Positions 20,451 to 40,089 of a stretch of 64,000 nucleotides of DNA are shown one piece after another (position 1 is the first letter of the stretch; the number at the start of each line of letters is the position of its first letter). The notes under the pieces were generated by a model. It saw nothing but the letters and a program-made list of their open reading frames with translations, was not told the origin of the DNA and did not search any database. The position numbers and the translations under genes are program-made. The stretch is taken from contig NC_037592.1 of assembly GCF_003073045.1 (NCBI RefSeq), positions 8,894,007 to 8,958,006 of the forward strand, written 5' to 3'. The DNA comes from Pomacea canaliculata (lineage: Eukaryota > Mollusca > Gastropoda > Architaenioglossa > Ampullariidae).

Positions 20451-23400
20451 CTAGTGACAATAACTGTAGTAAACATCGCCGTCCTGTGGTTCATCGCTAC
20501 AGCTCTGAGAGGGAATACCCAGGGTAGGCGGTGGGAGAACATTGCCTTTGTCTGCAGCAACATTATCGTAGATATGTCTCTGGTGGGGTCTGTCACATCC
20601 TGTTTGCATTAGAACATCCGGGTCTGTCCTAGGGTTCACCTGGTGACCTCTGTTCGGTTTGTGGACTACAGCGTATAGGGTGTCGTGGTTCTGTGGAGTG
20701 TCAACGTCTTGCAAAGGGAAACCATCCTCAGTGTGTTGATAGCCACCTGTAGGAAGATTTGTGAAATCAAAGGGCCGTAAACCATTTTGTTCAGCAAACG
20801 TTGGCAGGTCTGTTCCCACCACCACCACCGTCATTGTCATTGTCATTGTCATTGTCATTGTCATTGTCATTGTCATTGTCATTGTCGCCGTCCTCGTCAT
20901 CGTCGCTCATAACGACACTTTACAGAATTTCAATTTTGCACTTTTTATTTCCACAGGAAATGACGTCTTCAACTTTGTAAGGTAATAATACAATGTTTCG
21001 TAGGTTACTGACCTGAGACAGAGTAGAGATCGTTGGTGACCATGATTATAGACCTTCGTTCATCTCCGGTTATGGAACTTTTTCTGTGGAAGGTAATCAA
21101 CAGATTAATGCACAACATAATGTGCGACAGAAAAGAGCTGAATATCATCACCATAACAAACACAACAACCCGTCACCTGCCCGGACAGGTCTGGTGGCGC
21201 TACAGTTAACATCTGTCACCAATACAGTGAGGACTGGCTATCCTGGGTTCAGATCTGGCCTCGGGAATTATTTCCTTTATCTGAGTGTGGCACCTTTTTA
21301 CAGGTACGACTGCTTTCCTTGATCTGGTCTTTGCTGATGGTTCGGTGTAAAACACCAATTGTTTCCTCCCGAACCCAATACATGTAGGTGATACTGTAAA
21401 GCTATTTTGGCATTATTGTAGCAGCATTTTAAGGTTTGAGAACTAGTATTCGAGGCATGACATGGACGGACACCATGCCCACCATACACACCACACACAC
21501 CACACCACATACATCACACACACCACACACACCACACCACCATACACACCATACACGCCATACACAGCCACATTGATGATGATGATGATGATGTAGTTTT
21601 ATAACGCGCTAGTATCCGCATCACAAAGATGCGCTCAATTCGCGGTGATCCCAGCAGCCACCAAACTGCAGGTCAAATGAAAACTTCAAAAAAGTTGAAA
21701 CAAGTGAGTCTTAAGATTTTTCTTGAAAGATGCAATACTATCAGACTCCTACATTTCGACAAAAAAACACGCGGAGACCTTCATCAGTCACAATTTATCT
21801 CGTGAAACCCGGATGTCGGACGAAAAGTAAGTGTAGGGACACTATGCGGGTACATGACCCACAGCTAGGTGTTGTATAAAGTGTGGCGAGAGGCGGGGTG
21901 GGCGATATAACACGTGGCGAGATAAAGGATGGAGACTATATTTATCCGTGTGAAGGTTGACCTCATGCTGTACTCTATGACATGTAAGTGACGCAAAATC
22001 TGACAGAAACAATGACGTAATAACTCACGCACATTTTCACGTCACTCACTTGCTTTCTGCGTCACCGCCTGTCCTCCGGCGTCTGAAGTAAAGAGCGACA
22101 ACCACCACAGCCGCCGTCAGGAGGAGCACAGCGATGAGTACCCCGATCATTGTCAGCTTGGGTGACTTCTCCTCGTCTTTGTCGTCATCACTTCCTGTGT
22201 TTGGTGACATGTCTATCAGAAATAATAACCTCCCTTTAAACTCCTCTTTGTGTCTCCACTTCATCTTTGGCATGTCGCCAGGTTTGTTGGTCACAAGTGT
22301 TCTTAATTGGATATTATTATTATTATTATTATTATTATTATTATTATTATTATTATTATTATTATTATTATTATTATTATTATTATTATTATTATTATTA
22401 TTATTATTATTATTATTATTATAAGCCTCCAATTTTCACTTTTTATACACTCACTCACTCACTCGTCCCACCGAAGTATAATTAGGGGTTTCACAAGGTT
22501 CACTCTTAGGTCCTCTTCTATTTTGTCTACATCAGAGATGTCCCTCTTTATGTCGTGTGAAATGTGATGACACAACAATGAATCCATGTCACAAACTAAC
22601 TGAGCCACTATCAGCTTTCCTTCAAAACAGTGCTGATAAGTTTCTGTCTTGAGCTGAACTAAGCCATATGACACTCAACCCTCAGAAATACAGACGTTAT
22701 GCTTATAACAACTAGACAAAAGAGAAAAACCTAACCACCCCTTTTTTCAAAAATCCATCAAAGTACCCATATAATAACAAAAGTTCAAAACTGGAAACTT
22801 CTAGGAGAGGCCGTTGACAACAATGTGTCTTGATCTCAGCATATCCTAGTCATAAGCAAAACTGTAGCACAGAAAACCTGACTCCTATCGAAAATTAAAC
22901 ACTCCTTAAATCCTTGCTCTCGGAGAATGTTCTACACAGACACCTTATACTCAGTCGACCTTTGATTGCGCTTCCATTCTGTAGAACTCTGCTAGTGCTG
23001 CTTCTATGAGGTCCCATAAGCGTTCGAAGGAGAACTATCAAACTAAACCTTCATCCTACCGACATTCTCTATAGGGTCTAACCAATAACAAACATACTAA
23101 AATACAACTGTTGTATGTTTGTCTATAAAATACAAAATGTCGCCTAGACCTTACACACTCAAACTCAACACTCCTACATCAAGAATCGGCTGATACAAGA
23201 ACAGGAAACATTCAGGAAGCGTTCTATGTAACAGTCTTCCTTCACACCCTCGAACAAACGGAATCGAGACAAAATCAGTTCAAAGCAGAGCTTCGATAAC
23301 ATCTATATCAAACATTTGCTTGCAGAGGGCTATCACACACAACATAAACACTCATTACTAACAATAAAAAATAAACATGCACCATAGGTCACTTATTAAT

Positions 23401-38700: not shown

Positions 38701-40089
38701 GATGATAAAGTAGAGCTGCTGTCTAGCACAAAACGATGCAGGAAAGGTAAGTAGATACAAAAAAAAACGACATTTACTGTGGATTTTCCATTGTGTTCCA
38801 GTGCCAGCGCTTGTCCAGTTACATAACTTCTGAGTGTCAAATGTGCAATTATCTGAAACATATTTTGTTGCATTTGTCAAACATCTGTCTGTCTATAATA
38901 AGCTATCATCTTTGTGCATTTATCATACAGGGTGGGCCTGAAAATTAGTTCCGCCTCCTCTAATAGGCTCAGATGAGAAGCACTAATTGTAAGTGGCCCA
39001 CCCTGTACCATTACCAGTCGGTGCTATCTGTCTTTTGTAAATCTGCAGCAGTCAGATGGGAGTCCTCCCGTTGTCGTACAGAAACTTTTACATTAATGCA
39101 AACTAGTTTTACAAGGTATCAAAGAAAAAAGTCTTTAATTCAAGATGAATAAGAATTCAGTCTCAGGACATGACACGAAACAACATTAAAGTTTGACTTT
39201 TGCATGTTCATAATAGTAGGATCACTCTGTACACAATTCGTTACTCGATCACAGATAATAGATACAAGTAACCTTGGTAATAGATAATATTTAATACACA
39301 GAATAACTAAATCCCACCACACCACAAGACATACCTCCACTCTTGATCCCAGTGTGATCACAGATTTCACTGAAAACATGCGTAAGAAAAGTTTGAATTA
39401 TTCAAGATAACGGAACAAAATACGAGTTTTCAATATATTAGCCACGAAGAGAGAAAAGAATAAATCTTCCATAAAAAACAAAGCCATGCTTTCGTTCTGT
39501 CACTGCTTCAGAAAGTCTACACCTATTACTATACTTTCCTCTTAATGTAAATGTCGTTGTCATGTCTATATATTTACCACTTTACACCCAAACTGATGTA
39601 CTGTAGTGTCGGATGATTCAGTCTCAGTCCATAAGTACGAGACAGTAAAGCTCCTAAGGACGGAAAGGATTGTGGGTCGCGGGATCTTGGTGACAGAACA
39701 TGTCTTTGGATTTACACAGAGATAACCTCATCGCCATACTGCCTTAACCTAACGGTTTTATGAGGTGTTTCTGGCTGATTATGTAGTTCATTTAAGCAAA
39801 TTAGTCACACAGAGTCCCTCCAATACACCGGAACTGTATCCACAAACACACACTTGTAAAATACAGGAAATTATATTACACGTCGCAGATGTTGTTCCCG
39901 TCGCATTAATAAAAAATCTTATTTGAAAAGTAGATGTAAAAACAATGTTTGTATCGGAATGTAGTGTATGAGATATTTTGTATGAACAATTAGTTCCCTC
40001 ACTAACCTTGTATTACTGTCAGCTTGTCCAGACATGGAGTGACACCAGAGAGACATGATGAGGATGGCGAGCGGTACAAGGAGGGCCAT
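35707..40089 (-). CDS. Single-MAM type I receptor with tyrosine-motif tail, unit 6
   Basis: Exons: 40089-40007 (signal peptide MALLVPLAILIMSLWC...), 39369-39335 (EICDHTGIKSGG, two codons shorter than usual), 38852-38778 (CTFDTQKLCNWTSAG), 38259-37988 (core, LTSPWMCEDNVMTICVQF, LRLCNF, VLWFAN), 37571-37376 (IQFRGEK, FYLDNIFYENTSC, Thr-rich stalk), 36629-36464 (acidic stretch, membrane segment at residues 241-263, FRRQR), 36361-36291 (KKSSINRDPRSS...TNEFYDIAG) and 35945-35707. The sum is 1137 nt, 378 residues. The tail has Tyr296 (NEFYDI), Tyr324 (YYSVI) and Tyr353 (NYEIVDL, YxxV), and lacks the YC-rich end of units 4 and 5. The donor of the stalk exon is shifted slightly to a gtaaga. Units 7 and 8 are its nearest relatives and have no tail of their own. 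Confidence 0.87.
38535..38650. mobile_element. Hairpin MITE, copy in unit 6
   Basis: About 115 bp with inverted ends of roughly 27 bp (left 'agagcgtagatataaagagg', right its near-complement 'cctctatatctaccctct'). A related, partly tandem copy lies at 47468-47688 in the equivalent intron of unit 7. No coding capacity. Confidence 0.6.
38928..39005. mobile_element. Tiny mariner-type MITE, copy in unit 6
   Basis: 78 bp with terminal inverted repeats cagggtgggcc/ggcccaccctg, flanked by TA on both sides, as expected for a Tc1/mariner target site. It is in intron 2. Degraded orthologous copies are at 49161 and 56010. Confidence 0.65.

Follow-up and report, generated by a model that had tools for sequence, protein, structure and literature searches.

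Three recurrent tail tyrosines in a tandem array of predicted single-pass MAM receptors in Pomacea canaliculata

A 64,000-nucleotide stretch of the Pomacea canaliculata genome (C3:8894007-8958006, here called the window, within which the unit coordinates are counted) holds part of a tandem array of MAM-domain genes. Three of these, units 4, 5, and 6, have complete gene models for single-pass receptors, and the three tyrosines that an earlier note on this DNA had seen in common in their tails recur in all five tails of the array, the other two lying beyond the window at C3:8883.5 kb and C3:8837.6 kb. These tyrosines are conserved above their surroundings. With middling confidence, we read the array as a tandem family of type I receptors specific to this lineage, each with one diverged MAM domain and a tail that would keep three phosphotyrosine-docking sites.

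Units 6, 5, and 4 are seven-exon genes on the minus strand, running from the unit 6 ATG, which begins at position 40089, down to the unit 4 stop codon, which ends at position 20451 (Table 1). The signal-peptide-like start comes from exon 1, and exons 2-4 supply a single MAM domain together with a Thr/Ser-rich stalk. Exon 5 encodes a transmembrane helix with a basic stop-transfer sequence, exon 6 a 23-residue juxtamembrane piece, and exon 7 the tail, which comprises 76-100 residues after the juxtamembrane exon. None of the three models has an internal stop, the inferred introns are GT-AG in 18 of 18 cases, and the exon phases are identical across the units (1, 1, 0, 1, 2, 1). The membrane topology predicted from this arrangement would be that of a type I protein. 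Pfam MAM (PF00629) is matched over nearly the full profile, with 41.8, 39.0, and 38.6 bits in units 4, 5, and 6 against a gathering cut-off of 26.4. A PDB sequence search gave nothing significant; its eight matches at E up to 1 were led by an antibody at 0.036. Four enteropeptidase heavy chains, which contain a MAM domain, appeared at E = 0.52, and because they came up only at that level and no match was significant, we regard the MAM domain here as diverged. Within unit 4 intron 4, a reverse-transcriptase-like open frame (24098-24511, minus strand), recognized by eye, is likely a fragment of a non-LTR (long terminal repeat) retrotransposon.

Over the five tails, the consensus is N-[DE]-[LFV]-Y at the juxtamembrane site, Yxx[VI] at the middle site, and Y[DE][NI][VF] at the distal site. 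The tail at 8883.5 kb reads TNDLY, TLYAVV, and YDNV, and that at 8837.6 kb reads NNDVY, TYYCMV, and YENF; additional C-terminal tyrosines (YYSYC, NYCNYC) are present in units 4 and 5 and in the 8883.5-kb tail. YxN, the Grb2-type SH2-docking motif, occurs at four of the five distal sites, the exception being YEIV in unit 6. YxxPhi and NPxY are sorting signals, and the endocytic type YxxPhi is matched by all five middle and all five distal sites, so that SH2 docking is not the sole reading of either. We took the definitions of the immunoreceptor tyrosine-based inhibitory motif (ITIM; S/I/V/LxYxxI/V/L) and the corresponding switch motif (ITSM) from a published account (PMC8631942). By these definitions, the middle motifs of units 4 and 5 do fit TxYxxV, as the earlier note had held, and TxYxx[VI] is found in four of five tails, again with unit 6 as the exception; an ITIM ([SIVL]xYxx[IVL]) is found in none of the five, and the ITIM label is not supported. 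At the juxtamembrane site, NxxY has a hydrophobic residue at -1 in every tail, a motif that would go with PTB domains and not with ITIM/ITSM biology.

Table 1. Features of the MAM array within the window (positions count from the first base of the window)
Feature	Position	Strand	Details
Unit 4 gene	20451..26858	-	exons 26858-26783 (signal peptide), 26135-26058, 25586-25315, 24743-24551 (MAM and stalk), 22194-22050 (transmembrane), 21083-21013 (juxtamembrane), 20746-20451 (tail); Pfam MAM E=1.3e-10
Unit 5 gene	28836..33849	-	exons 33849-33771, 32087-32016, 31615-31344, 30584-30395, 30170-29981, 29535-29465, 29137-28836; Pfam MAM E=9.1e-10
Unit 6 gene	35707..40089	-	exons 40089-40017, 38852-38778, 38259-37988, 37571-37376, 36629-36464, 36361-36291, 35945-35707; exon 4 donor less certain; Pfam MAM E=1.3e-9
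Unit 4 juxtamembrane site	21023..21043	-	MVTNDLY (NxxY)
Unit 5 juxtamembrane site	29475..29495	-	MVTNDLY
Unit 6 juxtamembrane site	36301..36321	-	MVTNEFY
Unit 4 middle site	20664..20681	-	TLYAVV, matches TxYxxV
Unit 5 middle site	29055..29072	-	TYYCMV, matches TxYxxV
Unit 6 middle site	35863..35880	-	NYYSVI, Yxx[VI]; N, not T, at -2 and hence not ITSM
Unit 4 distal site	20559..20570	-	YDNV
Unit 5 distal site	28950..28961	-	YENV
Unit 6 distal site	35776..35787	-	YEIV, without YxN
Units 1-3, MAM cassettes (exons 1-4)	2194..18710	-	start codons 4466, 11854, 18710; no tail exons; open through exon 4, in-phase GTAAGAC donor
Units 7, 8, 9, MAM cassettes	45559..63235	-	start codons 50331, 56984, 63235 (the last a candidate only); no tail exons; frame-breaking deletion in unit 8 exon 2; unit 9 without in-phase exon-4 donor

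To gauge conservation, we compared four lineages, namely units 4, 5, and 6 and the 8837.6-kb tail, the 8883.5-kb near-copy of unit 4 being dropped. The alignment has 89 ungapped columns, 75 of them variable, and all three tyrosines are among the 14 that are invariant. When all six tyrosine-containing columns are counted, three are invariant versus 11 of the 83 others (p = 0.047). Restricted to the tail exon, the comparison gives 6 invariant columns out of 66, including two of the three tyrosines (p = 0.061); p falls to 0.003 if the three noted columns are treated as prespecified, which they were not. Pairwise identity within three residues on either side of the tyrosines is 0.36, 0.50, and 0.36 versus 0.41 for the whole tail exon, so that the flanks are on average conserved no better than the exon around them, and at the distal site the tyrosine is retained through a synonymous TAC/TAT change. 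TxYxx[VI] arises in 4-6% of shuffled single tails, whereas shuffling yields YxN in 25-33% of cases for the tails with a single such site and in 10% for unit 5, with its two sites. Because chance supplies it this often, YxN alone is weak; the Grb2-type motif of the earlier note fits four distal sites and does not fit that of unit 6. The transmembrane exon is under purifying selection, with a ratio of nonsynonymous to synonymous differences (pN/pS) of 0.35-0.57 and p < 0.05 in five of six pairs, and the synonymous divergence (dS) of the tail exon among the four lineages is 0.49-0.80. The suggestion that the motifs persist under selection while the tail diverges is supported by tyrosines that are invariant in five of five tails with flanks at the tail average, and its natural reading, drawn from four sequences of one genome, would be selection on single residues within a drifting tail.

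If these are docking sites, the MAM domain would bind a ligand, the tail would then be phosphorylated, and PTB and SH2 proteins would dock on it. The juxtamembrane VxN[DE][LFV]Y could engage a PTB-domain adaptor, the middle [TN]xYxx[VI] an SH2 protein, with an SHP2-type phosphatase as the first candidate, and the distal Y[DE][NI][VF] Grb2-like or other SH2 proteins. We infer the phosphorylation, the partners, and the recognition role from sequence; the output could be inhibitory or activating. This reading draws on the intact GT-AG gene models, the MAM matches above the Pfam cut-off in all three units, the tyrosines invariant in all five tails, and the constrained transmembrane exon. It draws also on the juxtamembrane site, which recurs in an unrelated tandem receptor pair (see below) and agrees with the NxPhiY core of one PTB consensus, that of AIDA1 (PMC3683042).

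Several observations weigh against docking. According to the AIDA1 work (PMC3683042), the consensus also has a tyrosine at -5, where all five tails have valine, and a peptide phosphorylated at Y687 failed to bind, so that NxxY need not imply phosphotyrosine. The tails of unit 6 and of 8837.6 kb stop early, before the additional C-terminal tyrosines seen in units 4 and 5. The p value obtained with all tyrosine columns comes from just four independent tails of one genome. Further, the tail exon evolves near neutrality (pN/pS 0.65-0.96; of six non-independent pairs, one has p < 0.05), and the tail and juxtamembrane exons taken as wholes are indistinguishable from neutral in 11 of 12 pairwise tests, which are likewise non-independent.

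Three other explanations of the tyrosines could account for parts of this evidence. The most serious is that the proteins are uptake (scavenger) receptors, in which the middle and distal YxxPhi sites would serve AP-2 and the juxtamembrane NxxY internalization, the tyrosines being kept for endocytosis and not for phosphotyrosine signaling. Yxx[VIF] is present at all ten middle and distal sites, slightly better than the four of five reached by ITSM or YxN. AP-2 does not require T at -2 or D/E at +1, yet T at -2 of the middle site is kept in four of five tails and D/E at +1 of the distal site in all five, and the proline of NPxY is absent from every tail; we regard uptake as possible, if on balance unlikely. 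An inhibitory immune receptor of the ITSM/ITIM type, whose middle site would recruit an SHP2-type phosphatase and damp hemocyte activation, would agree with the four TxYxx[VI] sites, given their rarity in shuffled tails, and with the report that the ITSM of PD-1 is its primary SHP2-docking site (PMC8631942). The complete lack of ITIMs and the missing T at -2 in unit 6 speak against it, and it seems improbable to us. Finally, the genes could be decaying duplicates in which the tyrosines persist merely because the tails are young or have been homogenized by gene conversion. The near-neutral tail exon would fit such decay, as would the two tails that end early and the 8883.5-kb tail, which has no findable transmembrane exon and whose tail exon shows no significant slowing relative to its flanks (14/296 versus 59/908, p = 0.17). 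The transmembrane exon, however, is constrained, and the tails of units 4, 5, and 6 are open despite being well diverged. Moreover, among units 1-4 and the cassettes at 8881 and 8873 kb, there are 5 gaps per 9,285 aligned coding bases (all stemming from one inserted codon in unit 3) versus 280 per 24,209 bases of intron, summed across 15 non-independent pairs. We consider decay very improbable.

Genome-wide searches covered 440,159,624 bases in 24 contigs. They used the tail and the MAM exons of unit 5 and the stretch of unit 6 that runs from the transmembrane exon to the tail, queries that more distant members could escape, and with these the family forms a single array at C3:8.837-8.972 Mb. 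Outside it, the unit 6 query gave two chance-level matches, on C12 and C13, and the unit 5 MAM exons gave weak matches (E 0.001 and above) to a canonical MAM cluster at C3:16 Mb. This very large gene cluster, at C3:16.1-16.8 Mb, has a MAM domain that is at most distantly related to that of the array. We considered and rejected it as part of the same family; the 37,000-base portion examined looks like a different, canonical MAM family, and the tail queries found no match in the cluster. In a 204-kb stretch built around the window and including 2,500 N, we counted 17 cassettes with MAM exons 3 and 4, two exon-3 fragments, and the five tails.

Most cassettes are less complete than units 4-6. Units 6, 5, and 4 and the 8841 cassette (those without unit numbers are named by position in kb) have the units-4-6 kind of transmembrane exon, and 8971, 8963, and 8892 have their own, of other kinds. 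In the remaining 10 of 17 (8955, units 8, 7, 3, 2, and 1, 8881, 8873, 8866, and 8851), a similarity and hydrophobicity scan with matches judged by eye identified none. Hydrophobic open frames lie behind most of these ten, the exceptions being the stretches that separate unit 8 from unit 7, unit 1 from 8892, and 8873 from 8866; we judged them simple repeats or non-coding, one repeat being common to units 2, 3, and 8881 with its frame broken in 8881. Because that judgment was made by eye, an unrecognized transmembrane exon is possible. A decayed one was suspected in unit 7 and found no confirmation in DNA similarity, and a scan for the substitution patterns that hidden exons would leave yielded nothing usable behind units 2, 3, and 8881. 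Units 2, 3, and 8881 match unit 4 on both sides of the tail and not in the tail exons, and units 1 and 8873 match on the upstream side only; it is likely that the tail was lost before or during amplification of the duplicated units. Units 1-3, 8881, and 8873 are open through exons 1-4, whereas exons 3 and 4 of 8851 are broken. An actual or candidate signal-peptide exon is present in 16 of 17 cassettes, six of them resting on a hydrophobicity filter that also gives chance matches; no convincing one was found in 8971.

This composition raises the question of whether cassettes share tails. The array could be a recognition locus of MAM cassettes, each with a signal peptide and each varying fastest in one patch of the MAM domain, in which tail-less cassettes would splice into the next downstream tyrosine tail, so that many ectodomains would share few tails in the manner of UGT1A. 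An in-phase (phase 1) exon-4 donor is indeed kept in 8 of the 10 cassettes without an identified transmembrane exon (units 8, 7, 3, 2, and 1, 8881, 8873, and 8866, with unit 7 counted from a shifted acceptor) and is absent in 8955 and 8851. The idea is weakened because 8971, 8963, and 8892 have transmembrane exons of their own and because the 8883.5-kb tail looks like a relic, and we think it quite improbable. That tail (C3:8884056-8883469, minus strand) consists of orphan juxtamembrane and tail exons, the tail exon being 95% identical to that of unit 4. Behind the 8971 and 8963 cassettes are related transmembrane exons of a third kind (C3:8969837-8969673 and 8961357-8961205, minus strand), each with a possible donor next to it, and no later exons were found beyond them. 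At C3:8891346-8890258 (minus strand), the 8892-kb unit goes on to encode a long stalk rich in Thr, Ser, and Pro, a transmembrane helix of another kind, and a short tail that contains KHYELPV and EKYQMNI.

Variation within the MAM ectodomain is uneven. Among six paralogues, codons 52-67 of the MAM protein (25540-25586 in unit 4, and the equivalent place in units 1-3) vary fastest, with pN 0.245 versus 0.06-0.12 elsewhere, a comparison made with no test of the patch alone. We weighed positive selection as an account of the MAM exons and set it aside: several exon-3 pairs exceed 1, but the pooled pN/pS of the whole coding sequence is 0.85, and Fisher tests of nonsynonymous versus synonymous changes were significant in none of four cases. 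Of three recent pairs, two show more rapid divergence in coding sequence than in introns (units 2 and 3, p = 0.0001; unit 2 and 8881, p = 0.02; unit 3 and 8881, p = 0.39), for which gene conversion could be an alternative cause.

Elsewhere in the genome, the DNA pattern for MVxN[DE]xY is found in 11 places, five of which are the exon 6 copies, versus 13 for a reversed control, and this general juxtamembrane pattern is therefore not enriched genome-wide. Five of the six other places were inspected, C3:2772164 being left out. Two of them, C6:26243315 and C6:26248458, belong to a tandem pair of unrelated receptor genes whose tails repeat MVDNDVY-like sites, and the remaining three had no receptor-like features. 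By eye, the members of this pair (C6:26241815-26244815 and 26246958-26249958) are single-pass, with a mucin-like stalk and a transmembrane helix. The sites are MVDNDVY, MVDNVVY, and MFDNVAY in one tail and MVDNDVY and MIDNSVY in the other; the tails are 56% identical, and their family has two matches in the genome. Because this pair carries similar sites, the juxtamembrane site is not special to the MAM family.

The earlier note's central proposal, that an invertebrate genome has genes for single-pass MAM receptors whose tails conserve three tyrosines, agrees with the gene models and the tail comparison. Its further claim of a new receptor class is overstated, as invertebrate receptors with tyrosine-based motifs are already published (Botryllus FcoR, Hydractinia candidates, oyster CgIgIT2); the unusual part of the units 4-6 receptors is the MAM ectodomain. 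An invertebrate precedent without Ig (immunoglobulin) domains is given by the Draper/MEGF10 engulfment receptors, whose tails have NPxY and Yxx[LI]-type tyrosines; they differ in their EGF-repeat ectodomain and in the proline of NPxY. PTP-mu type phosphatases and neuropilins resemble units 4-6 in placing a MAM ectodomain on a single-pass receptor. They differ in carrying further ectodomains, where the present proteins have a single MAM domain, and the receptor protein tyrosine phosphatases carry cytoplasmic phosphatase domains where the present proteins have a short tail with tyrosines. PD-1 and BTLA have Ig ectodomains, and those of the Hydractinia candidates are Ig-like.

Further parallels lie in the tails. 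PD-1 and BTLA resemble four of the five tails here in TxYxx[VI] and differ in combining it with an ITIM, according to PMC8631942. In PMC12065747, the Botryllus FcoR genes and the Hydractinia allorecognition candidates are, like the genes here, clustered and encode single-pass receptors with tail tyrosine motifs, those of FcoR being ITIM, hemITAM, or core Yxx[ILV] and those of Hydractinia being of ITIM/ITAM type (ITAM, immunoreceptor tyrosine-based activation motif). In contrast to the present family, canonical ITIMs occur there, the FcoR ectodomains are Ig with sushi and not MAM, and a role in allorecognition is proposed for them (PMC12065747). Oyster CgIgIT2 is likewise a mollusc single-pass receptor with a tyrosine-based tail motif; as described in PMC11999971, it differs in having five Ig domains and no MAM, with a reported ITAM and ERK signaling. 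In the open-licence literature, searched at the level of titles and the beginnings of abstracts, we found no MAM receptor with an ITIM/ITSM-type tail, although neuropilin-1 papers contain both terms, and no open-licence paper linking Pomacea canaliculata with the MAM domain was found.

Three-tyrosine tails amid changing tail sequence suggest a family of signaling or uptake receptors. In the papers cited here, the invertebrate receptors with ITIM/ITAM-type tails have Ig-type ectodomains, Draper with its EGF repeats being an exception from outside them. If the docking reading is true, this tandemly expanded MAM family would show that another extracellular fold had been linked to intracellular docking of a similar type, and if the cassettes share tails by splicing, the locus would offer a further route to diversify recognition.

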